Source: a virus
Direction: 5' to 3' (one strand)
DNA: 40,734 bases
Virus record (IMG/VR): IMGVR_UViG_3300020195_000966
Span: 1-40,734 of that record
Position numbers and translations under genes: made by a program. Of the stretch, positions 22,954 through 39,244 are shown one piece after another. The notes below the pieces were generated by a model that worked only from the letters and a program-made list of their open reading frames with translations, had not been told where the DNA came from and did no database searches. How positions within the stretch are numbered: position 1 is the first letter of the stretch; each line of letters begins with the position of its first letter.

Positions 22954-24207
22954 TCAGTTCATCCTTCGGCCCGTGGCCTTGAAGATCTCTTTCTTGAGCG
23001 TCTCGCTGTTGGCTTGCACGCTTTTCAGGACATCGAGCAGCTGCAGTTCCCACTCAGCAGGCCCGGCGTGCACGACGGGGACGGGAACGGGAACGGGTTC
23101 GGGCTTCTTTTCGAGCAGGCCCTTGAGATCGGCGATCAGCGTGCGGTGCTCTTCCGCATTGGACTTCATTGTGTCGACAACCAGGGAGAGCGTGGTCTGC
23201 ATCGTGATGAGGGTGTCGAGCAGGATCTTGTTGACTTCGACGGTCTCGACTTTTGGGGCCGGCTCTTCGAGGGCCAGGACAGGAGCTTCGACGGGAGGGG
23301 AGTCGTCGAGAAGCAGCTTCACTTCGCCGACACGAACCAGTTTTCCCTCGGCGTACTCGAGGTCGGACTCGGCCATCTTGAGGACTCCGGAAAACGAGGA
23401 CTTGGTCGGGTCGAAACCTGGCGACCAGACACGGGCTTTAAGGGCGAACGGTTCGAGAGAGCGTCGGATGGAGGAGGGGATGGGAGAGTCGCCGACTTTG
23501 CCGCGAGAAAGGGCAGCCGTGAGGTTGTCGGTGCATTCCGGGTTGGCGGGAATCGAGACAACAGACCATTCGAGCATGGTCCACTCCAGGAACCGGAGGG
23601 GTGCCCAGCCGTCGAAGTAGATGATCTCTTCGCCGTTCGATGCCTTCTTTGGACGAAGGTCGCGGCCGTCTTCGTCACAGTGCTCGTCCTTCATGAAGGA
23701 CGCGACGTTAGGCAGGAAGCCGATCGAAGTGGAACGCAGGATCTTCTCGGCGACCAGACCAAAGACACAAGCGGATTCCGGAGTCTTGCCGTGGAACCGG
23801 CAAGAAGCTTTGACGCCGTCCTCGCCAACGACAGGAGGCATGGAGGTCGCAATCGGCAAGTCGTGGGACTTGTGGCCGAAGAAGACTTGGGGATTCTTGA
23901 GGAACTGGTCCATGGTCTTGATGCAGCCGCGTGGCATGACCACGTCACCGTAGCGGTCGCGGGCAGGAGTGGTAATGGTGAACGAGGCGGTCATATCCGA
24001 CTCGTCGACCTCCGGCTCCGGAGCTTCGGGGTCCCCGAAGGCAAGAACGTTGCTGTCGCCCAGGCGGGTGACGGCAGTGCTGAGGAAAGCGATCGACGGC
24101 AGAGCAAGGCCATGCGACCGCATCTGGCCCAGGAAAGCGGACTGCCGCTGGGCAAGGACGTCGTAGATCGAATTGTTCAGCAGGATGTCGGGGTCTTTAA
24201 TGGCCAT
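22954..24207 (-). CDS. HK97-family prohead protease (S78), with C-terminal scaffold-like extension
   Basis: A 417-residue protein. The protease domain covers residues 60-260: GDVVMPRGCI, QVFFGHKSHDLPIA (catalytic His near 112), RSTSIGFLP (Ser near 161) and LEWSVVSIPANPE (Glu near 213), in the order of the S78 family. The C-terminal 150 residues are acidic, Pro-rich and helical (LLDTLITMQTTLSLVVDTMKSNAEEHRTLIADLKGLLEK, LDVLKSVQANSETLKKEI), suggesting a fused scaffold. It would cleave the capsid delta domain and itself during head maturation. It overlaps the portal gene by 11 bases. Confidence 0.9.
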   Translation of the reverse strand: MAIKDPDILLNNSIYDVLAQRQSAFLGQMRSHGLALPSIAFLSTAVTRLGDSNVLAFGDPEAPEPEVDESDMTASFTITTPARDRYGDVVMPRGCIKTMDQFLKNPQVFFGHKSHDLPIATSMPPVVGEDGVKASCRFHGKTPESACVFGLVAEKILRSTSIGFLPNVASFMKDEHCDEDGRDLRPKKASNGEEIIYFDGWAPLRFLEWTMLEWSVVSIPANPECTDNLTAALSRGKVGDSPIPSSIRRSLEPFALKARVWSPGFDPTKSSFSGVLKMAESDLEYAEGKLVRVGEVKLLLDDSPPVEAPVLALEEPAPKVETVEVNKILLDTLITMQTTLSLVVDTMKSNAEEHRTLIADLKGLLEKKPEPVPVPVPVVHAGPAEWELQLLDVLKSVQANSETLKKEIFKATGRRMN

Positions 24208-25822
24208 GACCGTTGAGGGAAAAAGAGTTGTTCGCGCGACTACGCATAAGACGTTCGAGATGGTCGTAAGGAGACAGAGAGGTTTCGTCGGAGACGGTGG
24301 GCTGCGGAACGCCGGGGGAGGAGGGAGGAGAGGGCTGGTGCTTGCCCCCCATAGGAAGCGTGGTCATGTTTACGGGGAAGACCGGGTCGTTGCCCCAAGT
24401 AGGATAAGGCTCCCGGCCCCGGAGGACGCGGACTTCGTTGGGAGTGACGGCTCCGCACATCATATCGGTCATCAGCTGCTTTTCAAAGATTTCCGGATCG
24501 GGCGGGCTGGTGTCCTCCCACCAGATCTTGCGGCTGCCGTTGCTGTCGCCGTCCACGTCGTCGAAGAGACGGGCAAGCTTTTCGGTAAAGGCCTGACCCA
24601 GAGCATGCAGGAGTGGGTTCAGGGTAAAGGCACAGAAGCCGGCCTGGGCCGCAAGGACGCTGCCGTGGGTCATGCCGTCCATCATCCCGGCAACGAGCTT
24701 CGGAACGCCGAAAAGGGCCAGGATGTTGTCCCGCATATCGTCGGCGGTTTCGCCGAAGACCATCTTGTTCGGCTCGATGGTGAGCGGGTTGACCTTTACG
24801 CCGGGGGGAAGAAAGAGGGGACGGTTCGCTCGGGTGTCGCCGGCGTAGCGGGCTACGAACTTGGCCTCAATGCGGCGGAGATCCTCATCGCTGGGTTCGA
24901 GCACCTTTCCGTCGAACTGGATGGCGACTGTGGGAAATGTGCCGTTGCGTTGGCTGAACCACATGGCCCGGTTGTTGGAGTCTGCGATGTCGATCCACTG
25001 CGAACCGGCCGAGGTGGGCGAGTGGCCGTCCATCTTCGACATCGGATTCTTCAGCCGGAAGTGCAGGACTTCGTGCTCGGGAAGCTTCTTGCGGAGGTAC
25101 ATGCCCTCCGTCGGACGAAGCTCCCAGTGCGTGAGGCCTTTCTGCTCGTGATGGATCGGCCAGATCCAGTGCGAGGGGATGACCCAGGCCGCACAAGGGA
25201 GACCGAAGCTGTTGCGGGGCATCCACCAGTAGGCGGAGCCGGTCAGCAGGAGGAAGAGAATGGTCTCGTACCAGATATCCGAAGCGGTGTCCGGACGATT
25301 GGGGTCGCGGAGGAGGCAGCAGAGCGGATGATCCGGGTCTTCGGGAACTATCTCCTGATGGGTCTGGAGTGGGGTGAGGGCCTTGGTGCGAGCAGCGGGC
25401 GAAATTATGCGGGAGCGTTCTGCGCTGGGGACGGTGCCCTTGTTGTAGACGCGACTGATGTTGGGCGGATGCTTGGCGACGTTGCGGGCGATCGCAGAGA
25501 CCGCGATGTAGACCCAATGCTTGTAAGAGGCGACTTGTTCGGTGCGGCGTTCGCTCCAGCCATTGGCGAAGCCAGAAGGGAGCGAGGCTCCGTAGGAAAG
25601 GATCGAGGAGATATCGCGAGCAGGTTCTTCGGAGACGTTAGAAACTTTCGGCTTCTTGCTACGGCCTTTGCTGGAAGAAGACGGGGGATCCGAGGGCACT
25701 ATCCTGGTGTCCCTCGGATCTGGAGACGAAGGTGCCATGGCCGCAGGCTGAGAAAGGTTCGAGCGAGCGTCGGGTGAGGAAGGTCGCCTACGGTTTCGAT
25801 TGCGTCGGGACATGACCACCAT
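24197..25822 (-). CDS. portal protein, HK97 family
   Basis: A 541-residue portal. A Pro/Ser-rich basic N-terminus of about 80 residues precedes the family core: YKHWVYIAVSAIARNVAKHPP, WYETILFLLLTGSAYWWMPRN, MSKMDGHSPTSAG, FSQRNGTFPTVAIQ, MVFGETADDMRDNILALFGVPKLVAGMMDG, and GAVTPNEVRVLRGREPY near the end. The portal forms the dodecameric vertex for DNA packaging and tail attachment. ATG at 25822 and ATG at 25813 are both possible. It is the first gene of the leftward operon, just after a good sigma70-type promoter. No terminase gene lies upstream on this strand. Confidence 0.92.
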   Translation of the reverse strand: MVVMSRRNRNRRRPSSPDARSNLSQPAAMAPSSPDPRDTRIVPSDPPSSSSKGRSKKPKVSNVSEEPARDISSILSYGASLPSGFANGWSERRTEQVASYKHWVYIAVSAIARNVAKHPPNISRVYNKGTVPSAERSRIISPAARTKALTPLQTHQEIVPEDPDHPLCCLLRDPNRPDTASDIWYETILFLLLTGSAYWWMPRNSFGLPCAAWVIPSHWIWPIHHEQKGLTHWELRPTEGMYLRKKLPEHEVLHFRLKNPMSKMDGHSPTSAGSQWIDIADSNNRAMWFSQRNGTFPTVAIQFDGKVLEPSDEDLRRIEAKFVARYAGDTRANRPLFLPPGVKVNPLTIEPNKMVFGETADDMRDNILALFGVPKLVAGMMDGMTHGSVLAAQAGFCAFTLNPLLHALGQAFTEKLARLFDDVDGDSNGSRKIWWEDTSPPDPEIFEKQLMTDMMCGAVTPNEVRVLRGREPYPTWGNDPVFPVNMTTLPMGGKHQPSPPSSPGVPQPTVSDETSLSPYDHLERLMRSRANNSFSLNGHGH

Positions 25823-25850: not shown

Positions 25851-25874
25851 GGAGGAAACATAGGAGTTAGTCAA
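25846..25874 (-). promoter_or_regulatory. sigma70-like promoter for the leftward structural operon
   Basis: Reading leftwards, TTGACT (25874-25869) and CATAAT (25851-25846) are separated by 17 bp, close to the TTGACA/TATAAT ideal. Transcription would start near 25839, giving a short leader before the portal ATG. The -35 box overlaps the start codon of the divergent gene, so the two units may interfere or be co-regulated. Confidence 0.6.
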
Positions 25875-28720
25875 TGGCAATAGGCAAGTACAAAAGTGGC
25901 GAAGAGTGTCTGCAAAAGATTGCGGAGATCATCTCTGAGAGCACTGGCATCAACTTGATGCTGCCGGGCAACATAGAGGGGGCAGCACAGGCGATACAAA
26001 GGGGGCTGGGGCGGGTGCTGAGTTCTCGCACCACGCGAGCGGGGGCAAGGCTTGCGGAGTTTTTTGCAGATCCAGCCAAGGTTGCCAAGCTGCTGAAAAA
26101 GGTCAGAGAGCATTCGCTTGCAAGACCTGACAGTGGGTACAATACAGCCGCCATACGGCACATCACTGCCTCAATTGAAGTGTCACTCCAGCAGTTTCAC
26201 ACCATTGCCGCAAAGTCGGCGGAGGGGATTGGACGCCAGAGCCAGGAGCAGAAAGCGCAAGCATTCGCTCGCGCACAAGGCCAGACCAGAGCTGCTGCGG
26301 ACACACGAGAGGATATGGCAGCCAAGCGAGGAAAACGACAAGTTGCTACAAGCGTTACCCAGCATTACCGTTTCCTACAGGAAGATAGGCAGAGCGGTGT
26401 GCAGACCGTGAGTGCGACAGAGCTGGAAGAATCTCCTGTTGAAAAGTCACGTCCAGGCAAGCCGGGCAGTACGGGTCCAAGCCTGGCAGGTGACATAGTA
26501 AAGCGTCGGGATACGGTTGCCGACCATCGGAGACAGCAGGATGCACAGTTACAAGGGCAAGTGAACTGGACCAGAGCTAAGGGCAAACGGAAGGTACCGG
26601 AAAGAAGACGGCAGTCGATACTGTCTGGCACGGCTGTAGCACAGTTGTTGCCCCCGAAGGTAGTAAGCGAGATCGAGCTGCATGCAAAACGAGCCAGGCT
26701 GGACTACAGGCAGACACACGAACTGTTCAGTTTGCTGATCGAGCACAGTGGAAATTTGTTCAACCCGCAAAGCCCATACTACAGGATGAGACAAGGACCC
26801 AAGAAGGACAGCAATGTCGGCCTAACTCCGCAGCAGGTACGTACCATTGCCGCCTGGATACCCCATGCCGCTGCGAGAGTCAGCGGCAATGCTCCACCAA
26901 GAGCAGGAAAAAGGCGAGAAAATTCCGGGTCCGTTTCGTTCGACTGGATCATGAAAGCGGCCAAGAACGTGGGAGCAAGCGAGGAGCAGGCAAAGCGGGC
27001 GATATCCGATCTGGCTGAGATGTATCCGACCCTGCTCAACGACAAGAAACTGCACAGATTTAGAAAAAGCATCGACAACCACGAGATGGGACACAGGCCA
27101 CAAGAGCAGGAAGAGAGAGCGGTTTTTGCGGCGCAGGACTATCTTCGAAGGATGAAGCGTGCGGATCGGGTTACGGCCGCATCAAAGGAAGGAAAGGCAT
27201 ACGAGGCCTGGGCTAAAGCGAACTCTGTACCGTTGCACAAGGAGGGGCAGAGCATTGCTGACGCGATGAAGGAGCAGGCTAAAAGGACTGCGCTTTTGGA
27301 TAAGGTTGCTGCAGTACGTACAAAGCGGTACCAGTCCTGGATTGAGGCGAATCCTATACCGTTTCGCAAGTTTGAGGGCATGACGGTTGACGAGCTGCTC
27401 GATCCTCTCTACAACCCCGATACGGGGAAAAGAGATATGAGGCGAGGGAAGGACAGAACGTACTATCTTGCCGCTATGATGGACTCGGATCTGATTCGAA
27501 AGAAGTATCCACACTTTCATACGTTCTTGCATCGGTACTATACAACTCAGCCGGACGTGAAGGCTGCCGTCGATCGGCATACGGCAATGGGTGACAGGTT
27601 GTCGCCAAAGGACCTGGATCCACATTGGAGCGATCGCCGCGAAAATTACTCAGGGTTCAGAGTGGCTTACAGTGACACGAGCAAAAGGAAGGAAGAAGGG
27701 TTTGCAGTATCGGATGCGCAGGACAGGGATTCTGATGAATTAAGGGGTACACCAGGATATGAAACTCATGCCCGACGCCGGGAGCAGAGACGAGCAAAGG
27801 ATCCGGATCCTAACTGGACGCGGAGAGATCAGGATAGAGCATCGCTGCGAAGGCAGTGGGAGAAGGGCGGGCCAGTCTCCGATCGCGTAAAGCACCTAGT
27901 TGCCCTGATGGACAGCCCGGCCTACAGACCTCCAAAGCCTTATGAACGTCCGGCCGTCAAAGGCAAAAAGAGAAGGCAGTGGGTGCAAGACGAGGAAACG
28001 GGGATGTGGAAGCGGGAAGGGCAGGTGATCTACAAGCGGTTTGACTGGAAGAGCGGAGAGTGGGTCAATGCGAGGGGTCGAGGTCGGCTGCAGGGATTGC
28101 AGTCGCGGATCATGGCCACGTACGCCGAGTGGAGCAAGGAGAGAGAAGAGCGGCAGATCAAGTTCTGGGGCTTGACCGAAAAGTTGGTGCAGAGCGACTC
28201 CCGGTACAAGGTAGATTCAGTTTCGGACGAGACCTCAGTAGAGAGCTTCACCGGAATGGGCAGAAGAAAGGATAGGAGCAGCCCAGTCGATCGATTCGCT
28301 TTTGATGTTCAGAGGGAAGAGGATGAGACTATGGGGAGACGCGGGAAGAGGAAGAAGGGCAGCAGGCCCAAGGAACGAGAGATGGCGTGGGCCGACAAGT
28401 TCAGAGGCGCAAAGTCGCTGGAGGAGTGGCACATGCACGTACAGGGTTTGGAGGAAGAGGTAGGAGAAGGAACCGGTATGGGCATGGCGGCACTAAGCTT
28501 CCACCAGGGCGACAAAGAAAAGTTGGCCAAGTACGGTCTGCGAGATTATCCGGCCAGTCCTTATGACACGATAGGTGTCAAGGGGTCGGATGGGAAGGAC
28601 ATCTCTTCGGCGGACAAGCACCCCATTTACGAGCAAGAGGAGCCGACTCTGCGAAGCGTCATGAGGCAGACGGGTGCGGTGCTGACGGCAGCACAAAGCG
28701 GCAAAAAGCCTACAGCGTGA
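25874..28720 (+). CDS. large basic hydrophilic protein of unknown function
   Basis: A 948-residue soluble protein, rich in Arg, Lys, Gln and Glu, with no membrane segment and no nucleotide-binding or nuclease motif that I can see. Two short internal repeats exist: YEAWAKANSVPLHK (about residues 440-453) with YQSWIEANPIPFRK (about 486-499), and KDLDPHWSDRR (about 579) with KDPDPNWTRRD (about 642). It is transcribed away from the portal gene, in the place where terminase normally sits, but it shows no Walker A or B and is not a terminase. An internal virion or ejected protein, or a large DNA-binding protein, are guesses. Base composition is less GC-rich than the genes to its right. Confidence 0.75.
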   Translation: MAIGKYKSGEECLQKIAEIISESTGINLMLPGNIEGAAQAIQRGLGRVLSSRTTRAGARLAEFFADPAKVAKLLKKVREHSLARPDSGYNTAAIRHITASIEVSLQQFHTIAAKSAEGIGRQSQEQKAQAFARAQGQTRAAADTREDMAAKRGKRQVATSVTQHYRFLQEDRQSGVQTVSATELEESPVEKSRPGKPGSTGPSLAGDIVKRRDTVADHRRQQDAQLQGQVNWTRAKGKRKVPERRRQSILSGTAVAQLLPPKVVSEIELHAKRARLDYRQTHELFSLLIEHSGNLFNPQSPYYRMRQGPKKDSNVGLTPQQVRTIAAWIPHAAARVSGNAPPRAGKRRENSGSVSFDWIMKAAKNVGASEEQAKRAISDLAEMYPTLLNDKKLHRFRKSIDNHEMGHRPQEQEERAVFAAQDYLRRMKRADRVTAASKEGKAYEAWAKANSVPLHKEGQSIADAMKEQAKRTALLDKVAAVRTKRYQSWIEANPIPFRKFEGMTVDELLDPLYNPDTGKRDMRRGKDRTYYLAAMMDSDLIRKKYPHFHTFLHRYYTTQPDVKAAVDRHTAMGDRLSPKDLDPHWSDRRENYSGFRVAYSDTSKRKEEGFAVSDAQDRDSDELRGTPGYETHARRREQRRAKDPDPNWTRRDQDRASLRRQWEKGGPVSDRVKHLVALMDSPAYRPPKPYERPAVKGKKRRQWVQDEETGMWKREGQVIYKRFDWKSGEWVNARGRGRLQGLQSRIMATYAEWSKEREERQIKFWGLTEKLVQSDSRYKVDSVSDETSVESFTGMGRRKDRSSPVDRFAFDVQREEDETMGRRGKRKKGSRPKEREMAWADKFRGAKSLEEWHMHVQGLEEEVGEGTGMGMAALSFHQGDKEKLAKYGLRDYPASPYDTIGVKGSDGKDISSADKHPIYEQEEPTLRSVMRQTGAVLTAAQSGKKPTA

Positions 28721-29982: not shown

Positions 29983-30094
29983 TCTACCTGAACCTTGCAC
30001 TACGCAAGACAGGTTCCGTTCGCCCTGGAGGAAAAAAGGCTGAGCTGAGTCGAGCAACCGCCCCTGACGTCGTGTGACGCCGGGGGAGAAAAGT

Positions 30095-30124
30095 GTGTGC
30101 GGGGGATTGCAGTCCCCCGCACAC
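30095..30124 (+). promoter_or_regulatory. 12-bp stem-loop in the leader of the polymerase-like gene
   Basis: GTGTGCGGGGGA and TCCCCCGCACAC pair perfectly around TTGCAG. Just downstream, GGTTGTTCC and GGAGGAACC can form an imperfect hairpin that would hold the GGAGG ribosome site (30144-30148) of the next gene. Translation may therefore be controlled by structure. Confidence 0.45.
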
Positions 30125-30157
30125 GGGTTGTTCCACCCTCCCAGGAGGAACCTTGCC

Positions 30158-32641
30158 ATGATGACGGCTAACAAGCCGGAGGTCAAGGTAAGCGGAAGGA
30201 CGGTGACTGTAGTCCAGGTCACCGCCGCCGGAGAGAAGGTAGCCCGGAAGTACCGGGTGCCAATCTCTCGCCTTTCGGAAACGCTCGGGCGTATCGCCCG
30301 AGCGGAGCCGAAAGCTGAAGTCAGGGTCAGTTTCCCTGGCGTCAGCCGACGCCAGGTGAAGGAGGTCCTCAGTCTCCTCACGCAGGAGATTCTGGACATC
30401 TATGGCCCGGGGATCGACAGCTGGGGCTGGAAGCCCCTGGTCGAGGTTGCCGGGCTTCGGGTTCGAAAGCTCGTGCTGCCGAAGGTCAGGAAGGACGATG
30501 ACCCCGAGGTCATCCGGCAGCTGGTGATGCGAAAGGTCGCATCACCTCAACCGACCCTCGCCGTCCCAGTGGACGGCGGGGTGCTCCTGGCGTATGCCGA
30601 CCAGGAGGGCTGGCTGACGGCCTATGAGGCCGTCGGTGTGGTCTTCAAGGGGGGCAAGAAGCCCTTCAAGCGGGCGAAGAGCCTGCTCAGTAGGTTTCCC
30701 ATCACCGCCAGGCTGGCGGTGGTGAAGGTCGCCATCCTCGACGACGAGGCCGATATCCTCGACGGATACGGCCTCGTCCGCGAGAGCTGGGTGCGGGCTC
30801 GCATCCAGGAGATGCGGCCTGCCTTGGTCGGGGAGTCCAAGAAGGACTTCCAGATCAAGGAAGCTTTCAAGGCCATGATGGCCAAAGCGAGGCGTAGCGA
30901 GTGGTTCTCCTTCCGGGGCGTGCTCCCGGAAGGGTTCCTGAAATGCCACCTGCGGGTGGTAGAAGACGGCAAGTTCCCGGATCCCTCGGCGGACATCGTC
31001 GTCCACCGCGGGAACATCAAGAACGAGATCGCCAGCAGCGGCGACTCGTTCGTGGGAATGCTGCCGATTGGCAGCCATGGGGCGGCCCGGGTCAATGTGC
31101 AGCTCCTGGCTGCACATCCCTGGCTCTTTCCGGAGAGCGAGGTCGTGGAGTGGGCACACGACCAGCTACGGAAAGTGTACCGGGGGATCATCGGCGGAGA
31201 GCTCGGCGAGACCATCGGGAAGTTGATGGTTGCGGAGCAGGCCCAGGCGGAGGGCCTGGGGGAAGAGTCCATGTACCTGAGGATGAGGTGGACGGCCCTC
31301 CGGCTGTTCGGCCTCGGGTACAGGTTCGAGAACGCCCCCGCCCTGGGCGTTCGGTACGCGGAGGCCATGAGCCGGCCTATCGCGAGACGGAGTGAAGACG
31401 GGAAGGTGCTGAAGCTAGGGGTAGAGATACCCTGTAGCTGGGAGGGACAGCCCGTGTCCTCCTCCTTCGCCAGCCTCCTCGGATTCCCCGAGGATCGGCT
31501 GCCGCAGGGCAACGAAGTCCGGCGTCTGCCGGGCTTCGACTTCGCCGTCATCACTGACGCGAAGTGGCGGGCACTGAATCGCTTCGGGTCGTGGGGTAGC
31601 CACGACGGCGATGACTTCGTGGTGTGGGTATACCGCACCATCGAAGGGCAGCGGAAGGTCATTGGGGTCCGCAACCCCAGCGACCGAGGCGGCTATGCCG
31701 TCTTCGATTACGTGGACGGGGACGTGCGTCCCCTGTCCACCCGGATGGATGAGAGGGGTATCAAGTGCGGGGTGAGCTTCCCTGCACTTGATATCTCCAG
31801 CCGTACCCCGAGCAAGGAGGAGCTCGGGGTGGTGCATGTGGCTCCCACGGCGGAGGTGAAGCACATCAACTTCACCTCCGCCGAGGTGGAGGAGGAGGTC
31901 ACGCACCTCCTCAAGGGCGACAGCCCCGGGGCCTTCGCCAATCTGATCATGGCCCTCAACGTGATGGGGCCACAGGACAGCGGGCAGGATCGCCCCTGCT
32001 CGATGGACGATGGCATCGATGCCATGGTCCAGGGGACCAATCGCGAGCTCATCGCCAAGATCCAAGGATGGATCGAGGCGGTGAGTCGCGGGATCGTCAT
32101 GGAAGACGTCCCGTTCGACACCTACATGGCGGCGAAGTGCCGCTTCCAAGTCCCGTTCGACCTCCAGGAGGAGGGGTACGAACTGGTAGTCCGCGACGGC
32201 CTCGTCACCAGGATCTTCAAGGAGATCGAGAGTCGCCGCAAGGCGATGCTGGTTCTCCTGGAGAACTGGCTCCAGCGGCATCACGAGATGCCGCCCGTGC
32301 TTCGCGAGAAGTACGGTGTCGCGGAAGATGATGAGGCGTACCGCCGCCTCAAGGGCATCGTCGGGAAATTCCGCTTCGCCTGCTACCGGGCGATGCAGGG
32401 TCCCACGGAGTACCGCAAGGAAGCGATGGCGGTGGCGGTGGCGGCGGTGGCGGCGGCGGTTCCCAAGGAGGAGATCGGGCTCCTCGGGTACCTGCTGCAC
32501 AGGTACCCAACCAGCCAGGGGAGGATCTCGGAGGGGATCCTCTACAGTGAGGACCTCGTAGAGGGGTACATCGAGTCTCTGGGGGGTGTCGAGGGCGACA
32601 TCCTCCTGTACCCCGACGACGGCGGGGAAGAGGTGGAGTAG
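30158..32641 (+). CDS. putative divergent two-barrel (QDE-1/YonO-like) RNA polymerase
   Basis: An 827-residue protein, the largest in the small-gene arm. Motifs in order: D202-G-Y-G, like the DG.G before the first barrel of cellular RdRPs and YonO-like enzymes; RGVLPEGFLK with Lys262; IVVHRGNIK with Lys288; RVNVQLLAAHPWL with the Q of the family's 'Q.L..L' stretch; VEIPCSWEG near 422-430, where family members have a (R/K)xPC motif; then FDFAVITDAKW and GSHDGDDFVVW near 480-490, which matches DxDGDxxxVxW except that the first Asp is Ser481. RNPSDRGG follows soon after. The ATG has AGGAGG nine bases upstream. The missing first aspartate and low overall similarity keep this tentative. An unrelated replication protein is the alternative. 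Confidence 0.4.
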   Translation: MMTANKPEVKVSGRTVTVVQVTAAGEKVARKYRVPISRLSETLGRIARAEPKAEVRVSFPGVSRRQVKEVLSLLTQEILDIYGPGIDSWGWKPLVEVAGLRVRKLVLPKVRKDDDPEVIRQLVMRKVASPQPTLAVPVDGGVLLAYADQEGWLTAYEAVGVVFKGGKKPFKRAKSLLSRFPITARLAVVKVAILDDEADILDGYGLVRESWVRARIQEMRPALVGESKKDFQIKEAFKAMMAKARRSEWFSFRGVLPEGFLKCHLRVVEDGKFPDPSADIVVHRGNIKNEIASSGDSFVGMLPIGSHGAARVNVQLLAAHPWLFPESEVVEWAHDQLRKVYRGIIGGELGETIGKLMVAEQAQAEGLGEESMYLRMRWTALRLFGLGYRFENAPALGVRYAEAMSRPIARRSEDGKVLKLGVEIPCSWEGQPVSSSFASLLGFPEDRLPQGNEVRRLPGFDFAVITDAKWRALNRFGSWGSHDGDDFVVWVYRTIEGQRKVIGVRNPSDRGGYAVFDYVDGDVRPLSTRMDERGIKCGVSFPALDISSRTPSKEELGVVHVAPTAEVKHINFTSAEVEEEVTHLLKGDSPGAFANLIMALNVMGPQDSGQDRPCSMDDGIDAMVQGTNRELIAKIQGWIEAVSRGIVMEDVPFDTYMAAKCRFQVPFDLQEEGYELVVRDGLVTRIFKEIESRRKAMLVLLENWLQRHHEMPPVLREKYGVAEDDEAYRRLKGIVGKFRFACYRAMQGPTEYRKEAMAVAVAAVAAAVPKEEIGLLGYLLHRYPTSQGRISEGILYSEDLVEGYIESLGGVEGDILLYPDDGGEEVE

Positions 32642-32658
32642 AGACGCCGTGATAGGGA

Positions 32659-32697
32659 ATGACAAGAGCTGCAGCAACATGCTGCAGCTCTTGTCAT
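32659..32697 (+). terminator. perfect 18-bp stem-loop with GCAGCA/TGCTGC core
   Basis: An uninterrupted 18-bp stem with an ACA triloop, a few bases after the polymerase-like gene's stop. The core GAGCTGCAGCA pairs with TGCTGCAGCTC. Related stems with compensatory changes occur four more times downstream, always between a stop codon and a 51-nt element. Confidence 0.65.
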
Positions 32698-32703
32698 CCT
32701 TGT

Positions 32704-32754
32704 GACCCCGGGCAGGATCGGCCTGCCTCGTCGGCTTCGATGCCGACCGGGGTC
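32704..32754 (+). ncRNA. 51-nt three-way-junction element, copy 1
   Basis: Outer stem GACCCCG/CGGGGTC (7 bp) encloses hairpin GGCAGG-ATCGG-CCTGCC and hairpin GTCGGC-TTCGAT-GCCGAC. TTTCGCTCA follows, as in all copies. The third stem uses a T-A pair where copies 3-5 use C-G, so pairing is maintained. This copy is not followed by a gene at once but by a 390-bp non-coding stretch. Confidence 0.7.
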
Positions 32755-32763
32755 TTTCGCTCA

Positions 32764-33010
32764 ACGCCGGGGGAAGAGGGGATGGGTTCCTTTCTCCCTC
32801 CTCCCCCGACGTGAGTATAGCCCTCCACACGTCTCAGCGTACCTGGGATAGTCTGGGATCCTGGCAAGCTTACCCACACAATCGGCAGACAGGTCATCTC
32901 ATCTCCGAGTTTGGTTTTTCAAGTTGAGGGGGATGGGTATTGTGTTACCTGTCCAGTAGGCTACGTGCGTGAGAGCTCCGGTAGCTTTCACTGTCACGGC
33001 CTGCTCGACT
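32764..33010 (+). other. non-coding stretch with a GAGAGGG-like motif
   Basis: No credible gene. CGCCGGGGGA and a C-rich counterpart near 32802-32811 form a large imperfect hairpin. AAGTTGAGGGGG at 32921-32932 matches the recurring AAGTTGAGAGGG motif and may start a transcript running into the next 51-nt element and gene. Confidence 0.4.
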
Positions 33011-33061
33011 GACCTCGGCAAGGATCGGCCTGCTACGTCGGCTTCGATGCCGGCCGGGGTC
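33011..33061 (+). ncRNA. 51-nt three-way-junction element, copy 2
   Basis: The most diverged copy. Outer stem GACCTCG/CGGGGTC has a T-G wobble, the third stem GTCGGC/GCCGGC has one wobble, and the second hairpin has lost perfect pairing (GCAAGG). TTTCGCTCA is conserved after it. Length is still exactly 51 nt. Confidence 0.6.
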
Positions 33062-33072
33062 TTTCGCTCAGT

Positions 33073-33137
33073 AAGTGGAGAGGGAGCCTGTAAGGTACAG
33101 GTTCCCACAGTGTGTGCAGGGTCGCCACTGCGGCCCT
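33073..33137 (+). promoter_or_regulatory. type I leader: AAGTGGAGAGGG motif plus two hairpins
   Basis: AAGTGGAGAGGGAG (33073-33086) leads directly into hairpin GGGAGCCTGTA-AGG-TACAGGTTCCC (33082-33106, one G-T pair). A second hairpin AGGGTCGC-CACT-GCGGCCCT (33118-33137) follows, then the CCAGGAG ribosome site. If GGG is the transcript start, the mRNA begins with a hairpin. Confidence 0.5.
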
Positions 33138-33153
33138 TGACCAGGAGAATGCC

Positions 33154-33876
33154 ATGTTCATCAGCACCAGCACCAGCACGTCCCCGTCCGCCGCGGCCCT
33201 CCGTGGCATCCATCGCTTGGCCACGGTCCACGCGCACGCGTGGGCCTATGAGTGCTCGGAGGACGAGCTGGTCGAGAACCAGGTCCTCGCCTTCGAGAAG
33301 GCCACGGAGGCCATGGAGGCCTCCGAGCACAGGCCCATCGGCCTGCGCCCGTCCCTCAGCCATGTGACCGGTACGGGGCGGCTGTCGTGGAGCCCCAGCT
33401 GGGACGGGCAGGGGATCCGGCTGGAGGTCAGCCGCCCCGCCGGCGGCGTGGTCTCCGGGCAGGGAGGGTATACCGTGGCGGTCGGGCGCGTCAACTGGGA
33501 CCAGGACGGCAAGCTCGACGTCTCCGTCCTGGTCGACGCCCGCCCGGGCGTAGGAGTCCAGCTCCGACACCTCTCCGTCCTAGAGGAGGCGGTCGCGGCG
33601 GCGATCGGCTCCTACGAGACCCCGATCGAGGCGGAGGGCTGGGCCCTGGAGCGCGTGCGTATGCATGCGGAGGGTAGCTGGTTCGACGACGAGTACTTCG
33701 GCGGCTCCGCCGCCGAGCTCGTCGTCCGCCTGGACGTCGAGTCGGCCGCCCTGGACGCCGCGCGGGCCCTGGCCCTGGCTACCGGCTGCTACCCGAGCCG
33801 GGGGCGGCCGAGCTACCAGGATCCGACGCCCGAGGCGGCCCTCGACGCCGAGCCGGACGCGGCTCTGGTGCCGTGA
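33154..33876 (+). CDS. hypothetical protein, paralogue of the gene at 34886-35656
   Basis: A 240-residue acidic alpha/beta protein starting MFISTSTSTS, with CCAGGAG six bases upstream. Shared with its paralogue: LRG-[IV]-HRLA-x-VH-x-HAWAYECSEDE, EASEHRP-[IV]-GL, PSLSHVTGTGRLSW, RPAGGVVSGQG-x-YTVAVG, EEAVAAAIGSYET-x-IEAE and LDVESAALDAARALALA. Identity is high in the body, while the C-terminal 30 residues differ. No membrane segment and no recognised motif. The N-terminal 'MFIS' and leader are shared with the next gene, as in a module duplication. Function unknown. Confidence 0.7.
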   Translation: MFISTSTSTSPSAAALRGIHRLATVHAHAWAYECSEDELVENQVLAFEKATEAMEASEHRPIGLRPSLSHVTGTGRLSWSPSWDGQGIRLEVSRPAGGVVSGQGGYTVAVGRVNWDQDGKLDVSVLVDARPGVGVQLRHLSVLEEAVAAAIGSYETPIEAEGWALERVRMHAEGSWFDDEYFGGSAAELVVRLDVESAALDAARALALATGCYPSRGRPSYQDPTPEAALDAEPDAALVP

Positions 33877-33884
33877 GGTAGGGG

Positions 33885-33915
33885 CAAGAGTCGCAGCAAC
33901 ATGCTGCGACTCTTG
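33885..33915 (+). terminator. 14-bp perfect stem-loop
   Basis: CAAGAGTCGCAGCA pairs with TGCTGCGACTCTTG around an ACA loop. Compared with the stem at 32659 the inner pairs changed from CTG/CAG to TCG/CGA with pairing kept. Confidence 0.65.
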
Positions 33916-33926
33916 TCCTCTCGTAT

Positions 33927-33977
33927 GACCCCGGGCAGGATCGGCCTGCCATGCCGGCTTCGATGCCGGCCGGGGTC
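33927..33977 (+). ncRNA. 51-nt three-way-junction element, copy 3
   Basis: Fully paired reference copy. P1 GACCCCG/CGGGGTC, P2 GGCAGG/CCTGCC with ATCGG loop, P3 GCCGGC/GCCGGC with TTCGAT loop, and two unpaired bases (AT) between P2 and P3. TTTCGCTCAG follows. Confidence 0.7.
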
Positions 33978-33988
33978 TTTCGCTCAGT

Positions 33989-34053
33989 AAGTGGAGAGGG
34001 AGCCTGTAAGGTACAGGTTCCCACAGTGTGTGCAGGGTCGCAATGGCGGCCCT
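33989..34053 (+). promoter_or_regulatory. type I leader, second copy
   Basis: Nearly identical to the leader at 33073: AAGTGGAGAGGGAG, then GGGAGCCTGTA-AGG-TACAGGTTCCC, then AGGGTCGC-AATG-GCGGCCCT. The loop of the last hairpin differs (AATG against CACT) while its stem is conserved. Followed by the CCAGGAG ribosome site. Confidence 0.5.
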
Positions 34054-34069
34054 TGACCAGGAGAATGCC

Positions 34070-34234
34070 ATGTTCATCAGCCAGACGTCCTCCGAAGTCG
34101 CCCCCGCCCCCGCCCCCAAGTGTGAGCACGACGATACCATGCAGGTCGACGGTCTGGCGGGCGATCCCCTCCGGATCGTGCGGTGCAGCGACTGCGGGAA
34201 GGAGGGGAGCATCTGCACGCTCCTCGAGGAGTGA
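34070..34234 (+). CDS. small putative zinc-binding protein
   Basis: A 54-residue protein: MFISQTSSEVAPAPAPK, then CEHDDTM and, further on, VRCSDCGKEGS. The C-x-H plus CxxC pairs suggest one bound zinc. Start set by CCAGGAG six bases upstream, in the same leader context as the 240-residue gene. Function unknown. Confidence 0.65.
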   Translation: MFISQTSSEVAPAPAPKCEHDDTMQVDGLAGDPLRIVRCSDCGKEGSICTLLEE

Positions 34235-34237
34235 TAG

Positions 34238-34280
34238 GGAGGACAAGAGTCGCAGCATGTTGCTGCGACTCTTGTCCTCT
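34238..34280 (+). terminator. 19-20-bp stem-loop with TGT loop
   Basis: GGACAAGAGTCGCAGCA pairs with its exact complement around TGT, extended by two or three more pairs at the base. It overlaps the region just after the stop of the small zinc protein gene. Confidence 0.65.
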
Positions 34281-34285
34281 CGTAT

Positions 34286-34336
34286 GACCCCGGGCAGGAT
34301 CGGCCTGCCATGCCGGCTTCGATGCCGGCCGGGGTC
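34286..34336 (+). ncRNA. 51-nt three-way-junction element, copy 4
   Basis: Identical in sequence to copy 3 as far as I can read, with TTTCGCTCAG after it, but it is followed by the other (type II) leader. This shows that the 51-nt element and the leader are separate parts. Confidence 0.7.
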
Positions 34337-34347
34337 TTTCGCTCAGA

Positions 34348-34399
34348 AAGTTGAGAGGGCGCGTTGTGCGCCCGGTCGGTTCGAGGTCGCCCAGAGGAG
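34348..34399 (+). promoter_or_regulatory. type II leader: AAGTTGAGAGGG motif plus GGGCGC hairpin
   Basis: AAGTTGAGAGGGCG (34348-34361) leads into GGGCGC-GTTGT-GCGCCC (34357-34373). Then GGTCGGTTCGAGGTCG and a GAGGAG ribosome site seven bases before the next ATG. Confidence 0.5.
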
Positions 34400-34406
34400 T
34401 GTAACG

Positions 34407-34649
34407 ATGGTCAAGACTCTAGTGTATCTGTCAGGCGAAGCCTTCCCCCGTCTCTGTGTCGGTGGTCGGCTCCTGTGGCTTGGGCCGCGGGGCGCGGGAG
34501 AAAACCTCCACGAGCCCGGTGCGGGCTCGGAGTCCTTCTGCGACGAGCTGCCCGACGGTGACTACCAGACCGTCCAGGGCAGCGACCCTTCCCAGTGGTG
34601 TCCCCCCATGCCTGTCGGGCAAAGGATTGTTAGCGTCATGGATCTGTGA
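34407..34649 (+). CDS. 80-residue hypothetical protein, copy A
   Basis: An 80-residue protein: VKTLVYLSGEAFPRLCVGGRLLWLGPRGAGENLHEPG ... SDPSQWCPPMPVGQRIVSVMDL. The gene at 35833 encodes a same-length paralogue, very similar except for residues 44-57, where the acidic variable segment differs. No membrane segment; two or three conserved Cys and Trp. Function unknown. GAGGAG sets the ATG. Confidence 0.7.
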   Translation: MVKTLVYLSGEAFPRLCVGGRLLWLGPRGAGENLHEPGAGSESFCDELPDGDYQTVQGSDPSQWCPPMPVGQRIVSVMDL

Positions 34650-34686
34650 CGCCGACGGCGGGCGCGGCGCTGGTGCCGTGAGGTAG

Positions 34687-34721
34687 GGCAAGAGCCGCAG
34701 CATGTTGCTGCGGCTCTTGCC
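34687..34721 (+). terminator. 16-bp perfect stem-loop with TGT loop
   Basis: GGCAAGAGCCGCAGCA pairs with TGCTGCGGCTCTTGCC. Relative to the stem at 34238, two inner pairs and the basal pair changed on both arms together. Confidence 0.65.
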
Positions 34722-34742
34722 ATCTTGTCAACCATTCCCCGT

Positions 34743-34793
34743 GATCCCGGGCAGGATCGGCCTGCCATGCCGGCTTCGGTGCCGGCCGGGGTC
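34743..34793 (+). ncRNA. 51-nt three-way-junction element, copy 5
   Basis: P1 begins GATCCCG (a T-G wobble with CGGGGTC), P2 and P3 are perfect, and the P3 loop is TTCGGT instead of TTCGAT. TTTCGCTCAG follows. Confidence 0.7.
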
Positions 34794-34804
34794 TTTCGCT
34801 CAGT

Positions 34805-34868
34805 AAGTGGAGAGGGAGCCTGTAAGGTACAGGTTCCCACAGTGTGTAGGGCTGCAAAGGCAGCCCTT
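34805..34868 (+). promoter_or_regulatory. type I leader, third copy with compensatory hairpin changes
   Basis: AAGTGGAGAGGGAG and the GGGAGCCTGTA hairpin match the other type I leaders. The second hairpin reads AGGGCTGC-AAAG-GCAGCCCT: both arms differ from AGGGTCGC/GCGGCCCT, yet all eight pairs are kept. CCAGGAG follows. Confidence 0.55.
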
Positions 34869-34885
34869 GACCAGGAGATGTGACC

Positions 34886-35656
34886 ATGTCCAGCTTCAGC
34901 CGATCCACGCCGTCCCAAGAAGTCCTCCGTGGCGTCCACCGCCTCGCGGTGGTCCACTCCCACGCCTGGGCCTATGAGTGTTCGGAGGACGAGATGGCGG
35001 CGGACTTCGGAGAGTGCTTCCTTCTCGCCATCGAAAGGATGGAAGCCTCCGAACACCGGCCCGTGGGTCTATATCCGTCCCTCAGCCATGTGACCGGTAC
35101 GGGGCGACTGTCGTGGGAAGTCGCCCTGGACGGGCGAGGGATCGAGCTACGGGTCGATCGCCCCGCCGGGGGCGTCGTGTCCGGGCAGGGACGGTATACC
35201 GTGGCGGTCGGCCACGTCGACTGGGACGGCGGCGGCAATCTCACGGTGTCGCTCCTGGTCGACGCCAGGCCGGAAGTCGGCGTGCACCTCCGGCACGTCG
35301 CCGTCATGGAGGAGGCTGTCGCGGCTGCCATCGGCAGCTACGAAACCTCCATCGAAGCCGAGAGGGGGGCACTCGACCGCGTGCGTATGCACGCGGGCGA
35401 CTGGAGGTGTGATCAGTATTTCGGCGGAACCGCGGCGGAGTTGGCCAGCCGACTCGACGTCGAGTCGGCCGCCCTGGACGCCGCGCGGGCCCTGGCCCTG
35501 GCGAGCCCGCCTGGGTACCAAACGGGTCGGAGCTACTTCGATGGTTTCGCAGCTGGCGAGCCGGTCGCCGTGGGCGTCGCCGGCTGGGAGCCGGACACAT
35601 CGACTCTGCCGTGGCCGTCTGTCGAGCGGGAGCCGGACCCCTCGATTGTGCCGTGA
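34886..35656 (+). CDS. hypothetical protein, paralogue of the gene at 33154-33876
   Basis: A 256-residue protein starting MSSFSRSTPSQEVLRGVHRLAVVHSHAWAYECSEDE; CCAGGAG lies eight bases before the ATG (a GTG six bases earlier is possible). The body is closely similar to the 240-residue paralogue, with conserved HAWAYECSEDE, PSLSHVTGTGRLSW, RPAGGVVSGQG and LDVESAALDAARALALA. The C-terminal tail is longer and different (GEPVAVGVAGWEPD, EREPDPSIVP). Two diverged copies, each followed by an 80-residue protein gene, indicate duplication of a multi-gene segment. Function unknown. Confidence 0.7.
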   Translation: MSSFSRSTPSQEVLRGVHRLAVVHSHAWAYECSEDEMAADFGECFLLAIERMEASEHRPVGLYPSLSHVTGTGRLSWEVALDGRGIELRVDRPAGGVVSGQGRYTVAVGHVDWDGGGNLTVSLLVDARPEVGVHLRHVAVMEEAVAAAIGSYETSIEAERGALDRVRMHAGDWRCDQYFGGTAAELASRLDVESAALDAARALALASPPGYQTGRSYFDGFAAGEPVAVGVAGWEPDTSTLPWPSVEREPDPSIVP

Positions 35657-35657
35657 T

Positions 35658-35705
35658 GGGGATGACAAGAGCCGCAGCATGTTGCTGCGGCTCTTGTCAT
35701 TCCCC
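35658..35705 (+). terminator. very long stem-loop (about 22 bp, one bulge)
   Basis: ATGACAAGAGCCGCAGCA pairs perfectly with its complement around TGT, and four outer G-C pairs extend it past one bulged T. This is the longest of the five related stems. Confidence 0.65.
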
Positions 35706-35707
35706 GT

Positions 35708-35758
35708 GACCCCGGGCAGGATCGGCCTGCCTTGTCGGCTTCGATGCCGACCGGGGTC
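35708..35758 (+). ncRNA. 51-nt three-way-junction element, copy 6
   Basis: P1 and P2 as in the reference copy. P3 is GTCGGC/GCCGAC, a T-A pair in place of C-G, shared with copy 1. Followed by TTTCGCTCAG and the type II leader. Confidence 0.7.
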
Positions 35759-35769
35759 TTTCGCTCAGA

Positions 35770-35826
35770 AAGTTGAGAGGGCGCGTTGTGCGCCCGGTCG
35801 GTTCGAGGTCGCCCATTTCGGAGTGT
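35770..35826 (+). promoter_or_regulatory. type II leader, second copy
   Basis: AAGTTGAGAGGGCG followed by GGGCGC-GTTGT-GCGCCC, identical to the leader of the first 80-residue gene through the GGTCGCCC segment, then diverging near the ribosome site (CGGAG). Confidence 0.5.
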
Positions 35827-35832
35827 CAAGGC

Positions 35833-36075
35833 ATGAAGACTCTGGTGTATCTGTCGGGGGAAGGGTTCCCGCGGCTCTGTACCGGCGGGCGGCTCCTGTG
35901 GCTCGGGCCGCGGGGTGCAGGCGAAAACCTCCACGAGCCCGGTGCGGTCTCGGAGTCCTGCTGGGACGAGACGGAGGAGCCCGGGGTCTACGTGGACGTG
36001 GAGGTCAGCGACCCTTCCCAGTGGTGTCCCCCCGTGCCGAAGGGAGTCAGGATCGTCAGCGTCATGGATCTGTGA
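35833..36075 (+). CDS. 80-residue hypothetical protein, copy B
   Basis: Paralogue of the gene at 34407, same length, starting MKTLVYLSGEGFPRLCTGGRLLWLGPRG and ending KGVRIVSVMDL. The segment CWDETEEPGVYVDVEV replaces FCDELPDGDYQTVQG of copy A. It is preceded by the same type II leader. Kept as two copies with a variable centre, it could be under diversifying selection. Function unknown. Confidence 0.7.
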   Translation: MKTLVYLSGEGFPRLCTGGRLLWLGPRGAGENLHEPGAVSESCWDETEEPGVYVDVEVSDPSQWCPPVPKGVRIVSVMDL

Positions 36076-36142
36076 CGCCGACGCGGTAAGCGCTGATGCC
36101 GCCACCTGGGGCCGCGTCCGTGCCGTGACAGGAGCCGAGAGA

Positions 36143-36176
36143 AAGTTGAGAGGGAGACCAATGTGGTCTCCCTCTC
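36143..36176 (+). promoter_or_regulatory. AAGTTGAGAGGG motif with 13-bp stem-loop
   Basis: AAGTTGAGAGGGAG (36143-36156) runs into GAGAGGGAGACCA-ATG-TGGTCTCCCTCTC (36148-36176), a perfect stem. No 51-nt element is present here. The next gene's AGGAG follows 14 bases later. Confidence 0.5.
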
Positions 36177-37331: not shown

Positions 37332-37371
37332 AAGTTGAGAGGGAGGGAGCAAGACTACAATGCTCCCTCCC
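37332..37371 (+). promoter_or_regulatory. AAGTTGAGAGGG motif with stem-loop
   Basis: AAGTTGAGAGGGAG (37332-37345) then GGGAGGGAGCA-(9 nt)-TGCTCCCTCCC. The same motif-then-GGG-hairpin order as elsewhere, placed 22 bases before the next gene. Confidence 0.5.
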
Positions 37372-38212: not shown

Positions 38213-38727
38213 TCCACATAAGGTGGATGGTGAAGGGAGATGTGCAGGGACAGGGAGGGGTCGTCCAGCACTGCGACCCGACAGGAATAGGCAGCGATGC
38301 CTTCATACAATTCCTCAGACAGCCTCATATCATAGGGCAAGTCGCCGAAGACGGCGACCGGATGCTGGGCTGGATCATGTACGAAATGGGCCCATGGTGG
38401 GTCCACGTCCATGATATGGACATCCGAACGGACTCGCCGTTCGAAGAGGGCATGGAGGCACTGAAGGCCCTGGTCTACAGGGCAATGAGGGCCGCCCTGC
38501 AAAGTTGCGGACGTCGGCCAGTCGTGACACTGCAAGTGGCCGACAAGGACCTGCCCCTGCAGCTGCTGCTCAAGGACCTAGGCTTCAAGGGCAGTGTACT
38601 GGATCGACAGACATATCTGTTCCAGTACGGACAGGTGCCAGCGCAAGTCTGCCTCCCGTCAGGAACAAACCGGATCGCACATCTCCTTGATGCGACGCCG
38701 GGAGAAGAAGGAGAACCATGTACTTGA
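38209..38727 (+). CDS. GNAT-like acetyltransferase
   Basis: A 172-residue protein with a GNAT-type outline: QVAEDGDRMLGWIMYEMGPWWVHVHDMDI (beta strands and the region before motif A), FEEGMEALKALVYRAMRAALQSCGRRPVVTLQVADKDLPLQLLLKDLGFKG (helix, strand, helix and the 'LGF.' end). The usual Q/RxxGxG/A acetyl-CoA loop is not well matched, so activity is uncertain. GGAGGG and an ATGA overlap set the start. Confidence 0.5.
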   Translation: MIHIRWMVKGDVQGQGGVVQHCDPTGIGSDAFIQFLRQPHIIGQVAEDGDRMLGWIMYEMGPWWVHVHDMDIRTDSPFEEGMEALKALVYRAMRAALQSCGRRPVVTLQVADKDLPLQLLLKDLGFKGSVLDRQTYLFQYGQVPAQVCLPSGTNRIAHLLDATPGEEGEPCT

Positions 38728-38891
38728 TCTACATGGTGGAGAAGACTGGACGAGGCCAGTATTGGACCGGCCACTACTGGGCCTCAAGGGTCGAGCAGGC
38801 AAGAGTCATGCTCGCCGAGGAAGAAGCAAAGAAAGAGCTCGCCTACGTGACCGAGCTCTACCCGTTCGCCAAACTCAGGAGGCTCGCGTGA
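38718..38891 (+). CDS. small hypothetical protein overlapping its neighbours
   Basis: A 57-residue protein: MYLIYMVEKTGRGQYWTGHYWASRVEQARVMLAEEEAKKELAYVTELYPFAKLRRLA. It overlaps the previous gene by ten bases and the next by four (GTGA), with AAGGAGA upstream. The helix with repeated Ala-Glu-Glu and the WTGHYW segment suggest a small alpha/beta domain. Function unknown. Confidence 0.6.
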   Translation: MYLIYMVEKTGRGQYWTGHYWASRVEQARVMLAEEEAKKELAYVTELYPFAKLRRLA

Positions 38892-39244
38892 AAATAGTCA
38901 ACGTCAAGGGGATGCATCCCGACAGCGGGATCGTCTACTGCGGCAGAGAGTGGGCCGGGTGGCCCAGCAGCGTGTGGGGCAACCCCTACCGCGAAGGACG
39001 GGACGGCTCCCGTACAGAAATAATCGAGAAGTTTCGTGTGTACCTGCAAAAGATGTTGGCAGGTAAAAGCCCCGCCGCACGAAACATGCAGGAGGAGCTG
39101 GCAGACCTGACAGAGCGATCCGTCCTCGGGTGCTGGTGCACTCCACTCCGATGCCACTGTGAGGTGATCGCGGAGGAGTGGGAGAAGAGGTACAGCCTAG
39201 ACGCAGAGTGGGAGAAGCGGTACGGAAATGGAGGAGCGAGATGA
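38888..39244 (+). CDS. DUF4326-family protein
   Basis: A 118-residue protein matching the DUF4326 pattern: VKIVNVKGMHPDSGIVYCGREWAGWPSSVWGNPY near the start, RTEIIEKFRVYLQKML in the middle, and VLGCWCTPLRCHCEVIAEEW near the end, with the CWC-x-P-x-x-CH knuckle. The function of this family is not established. A duplicate YSLDAEWEKRY segment follows an EEWEKRY, a small internal repeat of about 11 residues. Start at GTG with AGGAGG five bases upstream; the longer upstream frame is an overlap with the small gene. Confidence 0.75.
   Translation: MKIVNVKGMHPDSGIVYCGREWAGWPSSVWGNPYREGRDGSRTEIIEKFRVYLQKMLAGKSPAARNMQEELADLTERSVLGCWCTPLRCHCEVIAEEWEKRYSLDAEWEKRYGNGGAR

Follow-up and report, generated by a model that had tools for sequence, protein, structure and literature searches.

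The present study concerns a gene in the IMG/VR virus record IMGVR_UViG_3300020195_000966, of which the whole stretch of 40,734 bases was analysed and is called the window here. The gene lies on the + strand at 30158..32641 and encodes a protein of 827 amino acids (aa). Its open reading frame (ORF) extends from GTG 30074 to 32641, the start at ATG 30158 yields the 827 aa, and a Shine-Dalgarno sequence AGGAGG, read directly in the sequence, stands nine bases 5' of this ATG (30143..30148, +). On the basis of the ORF, the family and the fold, the coding sequence was annotated as divergent two-barrel RNA polymerase (RNAP)-like. Structure models indicate that this phage gene product is a highly diverged relative of the RNA-copying enzymes known from plants, fungi and a few phages, as had been suggested in an original prediction made from the letters alone.

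Results

When the 827-aa protein was used alone, searches of Pfam, PHROG and PDB sequences gave chance rows only, even at an expectation value (E) of 10, tblastn had zero matches among 50,697 phage records and 72,556 plasmids, and scans of viral contigs and of genome contigs with the single sequence found no relatives. Relatives were obtained only after the divergent neighbouring gene, encoding the portal protein (24197..25822, - strand; PHROG 12 E 1.5e-45, Pfam PF04860), served as the query. By way of the portal, 8 related IMG/VR loci were reached, and in 5 of them (L002, L003, L005, L008 and L009) a homologue of the window protein adjoins the portal on the opposite strand; three of these records came from the genome search, and L003 and L009 from local tblastn. 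No homologue was seen in L004, L006 and L007, the contigs of which end less than 4 kilobases (kb) from the portal in that direction. Profile scans matched 72 stretches, which made up 16 loci, and then 58 stretches, which made up 40 loci, and the contigs of the family reach 268 kb. In these searches the family was confined to uncultivated viral contigs, as no homologue was obtained from GTDB genome contigs scanned with the family profile or from INPHARED phages searched by tblastn with the protein of one relative, L018. Furthermore, two BFVD proteins of uncultured Caudovirales phage, both named 'Uncharacterized protein', match the structure model of L018, A0A6J5NTF7 at a template modelling (TM) score of 0.97 with 52% identity and A0A6J5M9G6 at TM 0.70 with 19% identity, and on these model comparisons both belong to the same family as L018. 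One contig of 267,766 bases, IMGVR_UViG_3300042868_009074, carries two polymerase paralogues (L017 and L034) that are 53% identical, possibly a virion and non-virion pair or else a joined assembly. The homologue at L002:2656-5973 has 1105 aa and a NADAR-like C-terminus (below the Pfam cut-off, E 3.4e-5); the window has a separate DUF4326 gene at 38594-39244.

Two AlphaFold2 models were compared with solved structures, one of the window protein (predicted local distance difference test, pLDDT, 65.2; predicted TM score, pTM, 0.64) and one of the L018 relative (pLDDT 86.1, pTM 0.84). With the L018 model, a Foldseek search of PDB placed RDR2 (E 2.5e-7) and P23-45 gp64 (1.7e-5) on top, followed by P74-26 gp62 (1.3e-4 and 5.7e-4) and gp96 (0.019), while unrelated folds appeared from 0.15. 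In VIA-align, the same model gave Z 11.8 with RDR2 7w84 (root-mean-square deviation, rmsd, 7.2; 576 residues aligned), Z 10.1 with QDE-1 2j7n (rmsd 5.7, 595 aligned), Z 9.1 with gp62 (rmsd 5.1, 382 aligned), Z 7.2 with gp96 (rmsd 4.2, 324 aligned) and Z 5.7 with crAss gp66 (rmsd 6.5, 508 aligned), the first unrelated row being at Z 4.8. For the window model, Foldseek rows 1-10 in PDB were all RDR2, QDE-1, gp64 or gp62, seven of them with E <= 0.001 (RDR2 2.5e-7, QDE-1 2.3e-6), and unrelated folds started at E 0.36; VIA gave Z 10.3 with RDR2 7w82 (rmsd 8.5, 560 aligned) and Z 9.6 with QDE-1 7y7s (rmsd 6.4, 580 aligned). In overall fold, solved two-barrel RNAPs match both models better than other folds do. 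Fold comparison had been named in the original prediction as a check, and its outcome, with two-barrel RNAPs as the best PDB matches of both predicted structures, agrees with the proposal.

The two double-psi beta-barrels (DPBBs) of that proposal are reflected unequally in the models. Barrel B, the putative lysine barrel, covers about residues 177-304 (30686..31069, +), where single-barrel PDB entries align, namely designed DPBBs, the p97 N domain and aspartate decarboxylase (residues 177-304; Z 4.2-5.0, which is weak, with mostly DPBB entries in that range; rmsd 3.2-4.0). In L018, single DPBBs align to the counterpart residues 121-264. Barrel A was covered through whole-chain alignments, and its DPBB fold is putative.

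Conservation was examined in an alignment (A3) of 25 sequences with 18-24% identity to the window protein, and residues are given in window numbering. Invariant are K168, K171, R172, D202, G203, R253, K262, P274, N286, K288, E290, P303, Q315, W332, G387, P394, P425, Q431, G480, D483, D485, D486, R493, R505, P507, Y513, S547, G591, N595 and D621. The strings on which the original prediction was built are all present, these being DGYG (D202 G203), R253..K262, IVVHRGNIK (K288), RVNVQLL (Q315), EIPCS (P425) and GSHDGDDFVVW (G480, S481, D483, D485, D486), and the invariance of key residues in 25 members at such low identity shows that they are not due to chance. The DG motif D202-G203 (30761..30766, +) is invariant, and a DG profile taken from QDE-1, YonO and gp64 scored best of all L018 windows at the equivalent site (z 4.3). 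K262 (30941..30943, +) and K288 (31019..31021, +), both invariant in 25/25, are the first and second putative barrel-B lysines; their equivalence to known catalytic lysines rests on motif order, and a KG profile did not pick the expected place in L018.

The catalytic loop G480 S481 H482 D483 G484 D485 D486 (31595..31615, +) follows the metal-loop pattern G-[GS]-x-D-x-D-D in 25/25 sequences of alignment A4 and in 35/35 scanned ORFs (29 distinct). A DxDGD profile from RDR2, QDE-1, YonO and gp64 ranked this loop first among all L018 windows, in a register that puts the first Asp on the second Gly (Ser481 in the window), the second and third on D483 and D485, and leaves D486 as the residue that follows. 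The same triad register was given by hhalign on a reordered segment. Hence, Ser481 was correctly assigned beforehand to the first-Asp position, at which 24/25 sequences have Gly and one, the window protein, has Ser. Because Gly or Ser stands there across the whole family, the absence of the first Asp is a family trait and not a local loss. The three aspartates of DxDxD are thus not present as such: D483 and D485 are retained, and an extra Asp (D486) follows the third. The statement that crAss-like polymerases carry DxDGD was incorrect, as the phi14:2 RNAP has DFDID.

The RxP motif R505-N506-P507 (31670..31678, +; matched by profile in L018) lies on the side of the catalytic loop where it was not expected. 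In 25/25 sequences, an R[STN]P follows the first-Asp position at a distance of 24-30 residues, and in L018 the best match of a 10-residue RxP profile was KSVIVARSPN, located after the loop (z 4.7, against 2.9 for the next best; about 1/500 column shuffles). In the known enzymes gp64, gp66, YonO and gp96, RxP stands 38-43 residues before the triad, and in QDE-1 and RDR2 (KNP there) it is likewise ahead of it. In the placement of R[SN]P, the motif order differs from that of QDE-1 and YonO, with the best profile match after the loop. Since the RxP hairpin follows the loop, the catalytic barrel may be permuted, and barrel A would then have the strand order 1-2-5-6-3-4 or 3-4-5-6-1-2. We regard this structural sub-hypothesis, which is compatible with the explanation preferred below, as plausible but somewhat short of probable. 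It agrees with the finding that the 10-residue profile picks only the post-loop hairpin, and with the three strands that follow the metal loop in both AlphaFold2 models, against one in the canonical barrel. It is opposed by a non-invariant RxP that also occurs 20-60 residues before the loop in 17/25 sequences (in 16 as R-I-P, RIPIPC-like, at -56 or -58; the window protein has RLPs at -34 and -25), by a 22-residue RxP hairpin profile that missed the post-loop place, and by an hhalign score that was no higher with the segments reordered (15.5 vs 18.7). For comparison, some RNA-virus polymerases have a permuted palm.

The recurring GAGAGGG had been suggested as the promoter of this enzyme. Alone, it is mildly enriched (18 in the window vs 11.8 expected; 9/100 shuffles reach 18), whereas the longer AAGTKGAGAGGG, when one mismatch is tolerated, is present 8 times vs 0.54 expected and 0/100 shuffles reach 8, with the reservation that the promoter patterns were written from the very sites counted. 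The suggestion is thus better carried by the longer form, of which relatives have analogues, than by GAGAGGG itself. All eight AAGTKGAGAGGG sites follow the polymerase gene on the + strand, at 32.9-37.3 kb and mostly before + strand genes, and in 7/8 an RNA hairpin starts exactly at GGG. They comprise one site with a mismatch and a pattern match at 32921..32932, three sites AAGTGGAGAGGG at 33073..33084 (pattern and fold), 33989..34000 and 34805..34816 (both pattern and hairpin), and four sites AAGTTGAGAGGG at 34348..34359, 36143..36154, 37332..37343 (all pattern and fold) and 35770..35781 (pattern and hairpin), the AAGTGGAGAGGG and AAGTTGAGAGGG sites each having the hairpin from GGG. Hairpin-bearing GAGA..GGG sites in general number 14 in the window vs 4.4 expected, and 30 shuffles gave at most 9; some of the 14 fall inside genes.

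In two related phages, an analogous motif GGYCTGYYGAGATNYGGGG with a hairpin stands just downstream of the polymerase on the same strand (4 vs 0.04 expected in L066 and 4 vs 0.04 in L068, most of the sites looking syntenic between these two; none in L065). Folding of 7 RNA starts, 4 from the window and 3 from relatives, gave a hairpin from base 1 or 2 in 7/7, which was clearly more stable than shuffles (z below -3) in 3/7 only. A scan for the spaced motif with a hairpin had 1 and 0 hits in G002 and G004, probably because of its 5-bp (base-pair) stem limit, and the pattern read from the sites was used instead. No common promoter motif was found in the large-phage loci; AAGGGACC, located before the polymerase in L014, L023 and L028, is single-copy in each. 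From these sequences, AAGTTGAGAGGG and GGCCTGTCGAGATATGGGG are putative start sites for the polymerase.

After the polymerase gene, an inverted repeat with a GC-rich repeat (32655..32763, +), terminator-like, is the first of a repeated intergenic unit. This unit, at 32655-36170 of the window, consists of a long perfect hairpin, the GC-rich repeat, a promoter-like site and a leader hairpin; the intergenic repeats D5 and D1 have 5 and 6 copies, respectively, and duplicated genes lie around 33112-33876 and 34880-35656.

Regarding the wider neighbourhood, the minus strand of the window carries portal, prohead protease, capsid and adaptor genes. Between portal and polymerase, a 948-aa protein without family match is encoded at 25874..28720 (+), and large ORFs of 826 aa (L003) and 637 aa (L002) are at the same place, that of L002 showing a weak ExoX-like motif at its C-terminus. 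Next to the tail genes, an ORF has a very long Gly-Ser repeat stretch (window 6507-8234, -). IS110-like transposase genes are upstream of the polymerase at L028:5608-6354 and L014:5813-6682, and a DEAD/SNF2-type helicase is downstream of it in L028. In 8/25 loci checked, arrays with a period of 36-38 nucleotides (nt) lie between ORFs near the polymerase gene. They consist of AATGAATCA and, 20 nt later, TTAGTAACA-like boxes with variable spacers (L034:182-970, L051:11452-12092, L014:7382-7762, L030:11897-12165; also L037, L047, L029 and L046), and may be an iteron, operator or promoter array.

Discussion

In the present study, the fold matches and conserved motifs make it very probable that the gene encodes a single-chain two-barrel RNAP that transcribes the phage's own genes. 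According to the models, the family is a two-barrel RNAP by fold, without the three-Asp triad and outside every described subfamily tested. In the proposed mechanism, barrel B would carry the invariant lysines K262 and K288 facing the substrate, and barrel A the metal-binding loop. Nucleotidyl transfer would use two metals, with Asp483, Asp485 and the extra Asp486 replacing the usual three aspartates; this takeover by Asp486 is proposed because the first triad position is Gly or Ser in the whole family. The template is likely the phage's own DNA, and the polymerase probably starts at the GGG of sites like AAGTTGAGAGGG, so that transcripts would begin with a 5' hairpin. The family, its invariant residues, the match of the predicted folds and the promoter-like motif are observed; that the enzyme makes RNA, depends on DNA, employs Asp486 in this way and uses these promoters is what we infer. 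The fuller picture of a rebuilt catalytic heart, in which the first Asp is gone, a new Asp follows the third, barrel A is permuted and the enzyme transcribes from its own GGG promoters, is speculative and in our estimate less likely than not.

Several observations weigh against the reading as an active phage RNAP. The main doubt is the first triad Asp, absent in 25/25 aligned sequences, because YonO loses its activity when all three Asp are changed (PMC5467207). The window model is of modest confidence, with Foldseek TM of 0.34-0.41 to RDR2 and QDE-1 and large rmsd, and the profiles of bridge-helix motifs missed their expected places in L018. In addition, at the sequence level the protein could not be linked to any known RNAP family tested: RdRP (RNA-dependent RNA polymerase)-family Pfam entries gave no match at E up to 10, the PDB profile search no match to RNAP, and hhalign to YonO, gp64 and gp66 no significant value (E 0.16-0.75). 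The hhalign failure says little, because a control of YonO vs gp64 also fails, and the lack of a link to YonO, gp64 or gp66 accords with the new branch that had been envisaged. As to the promoters, their patterns derive from the counted sites, 5/8 AAGTKGAGAGGG sites are copies within duplicated blocks, and none was seen ahead of the polymerase gene itself; therefore, host RNAP may read the polymerase gene first.

Such copies leave room for another view of the GAGAGGG sites, namely as elements of duplicated intergenic blocks (terminators, leader hairpins) that are read by host RNAP. We consider this unlikely, with enough weight to be kept in view, since the sites at 36143 and 37332 are outside the D1 and D5 blocks and analogous motifs with hairpins occur in G002 and G004.

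The loss of the first Asp could also mean that the two-barrel fold is catalytically dead or has been repurposed, the scaffold being kept for another job such as nucleic-acid binding or inhibition of another RNAP, and multisubunit RNAPs are described as keeping the triad without exception (PMC5467207). However, D483, D485, D486, K262 and K288 do not vary at identities of about 20%, which a dead enzyme does not require, and three phages have promoter-like sites next to the gene; this alternative appears improbable to us. An RNA-dependent polymerase acting on RNA templates like RDR2 and QDE-1, its top fold matches, is more improbable still, because the gene is in a phage of portal/capsid type with promoter-like DNA motifs and the phage enzymes YonO (PMC5467207) and gp64/gp96 (PMC10770324) act on RNA-DNA scaffolds or DNA.

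A family in which every relative found lacks the first triad Asp may show that the active site can be built in another way. YonO needed the all-Asp loop (PMC5467207), and the present family makes this rearrangement of the metal site directly testable; candidate promoters accompany it, so that the enzyme can be assayed. Furthermore, the family adds a branch to the phage group that is apparently closest to the eukaryotic RNA interference (RNAi) polymerases (PMC7281927). It is not described in the available parts of PMC10770324, PMC1750930, PMC11258233, PMC7281927 and PMC5467207, and no description was found in the literature searched; PMC10770324 compares 23 RNAP families, and the present one may be among them in its supplement.

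Among known systems, single-chain two-barrel RNAPs occur in SPbeta and P23-45, and phage enzymes have been linked to the eukaryotic RNAi polymerases (PMC7281927). The crAss-like phi14:2 gp66 is also a phage two-barrel RNAP, with a weak fold match to L018, but it is a virion protein of 2180 aa with a DFDID triad and RIP 39 residues before. YonO of SPbeta resembles the window protein as a single chain of similar length (839 aa) with an identical order of the DG, KG and D-D-D motifs, and differs in its intact DNDGD, RSP 43 residues before and the lack of an hhalign link. P23-45 gp64 and P74-26 gp62 are phage single-chain enzymes as well (Z 9.1 for L018, 7.2-7.5 for the window model); gp64, a non-virion RNAP of 616 aa, differs in having ADYDGD intact, RRP 38 residues before the triad and no hhalign link, and GC-rich promoters have been proposed for it (PMC10770324). 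RDR2 and QDE-1 differ by identities of about 10-13% in the fold alignments, by an RNAi context that the phage family does not have, by a DxDGD metal loop where the family has G-x-D-x-D-D, and by RxP before instead of after the loop. They are nevertheless the best fold matches of both models and share with the family the DG motif, the KG motif, both barrels in one chain and a GG-loop followed by a hydrophobic strand.

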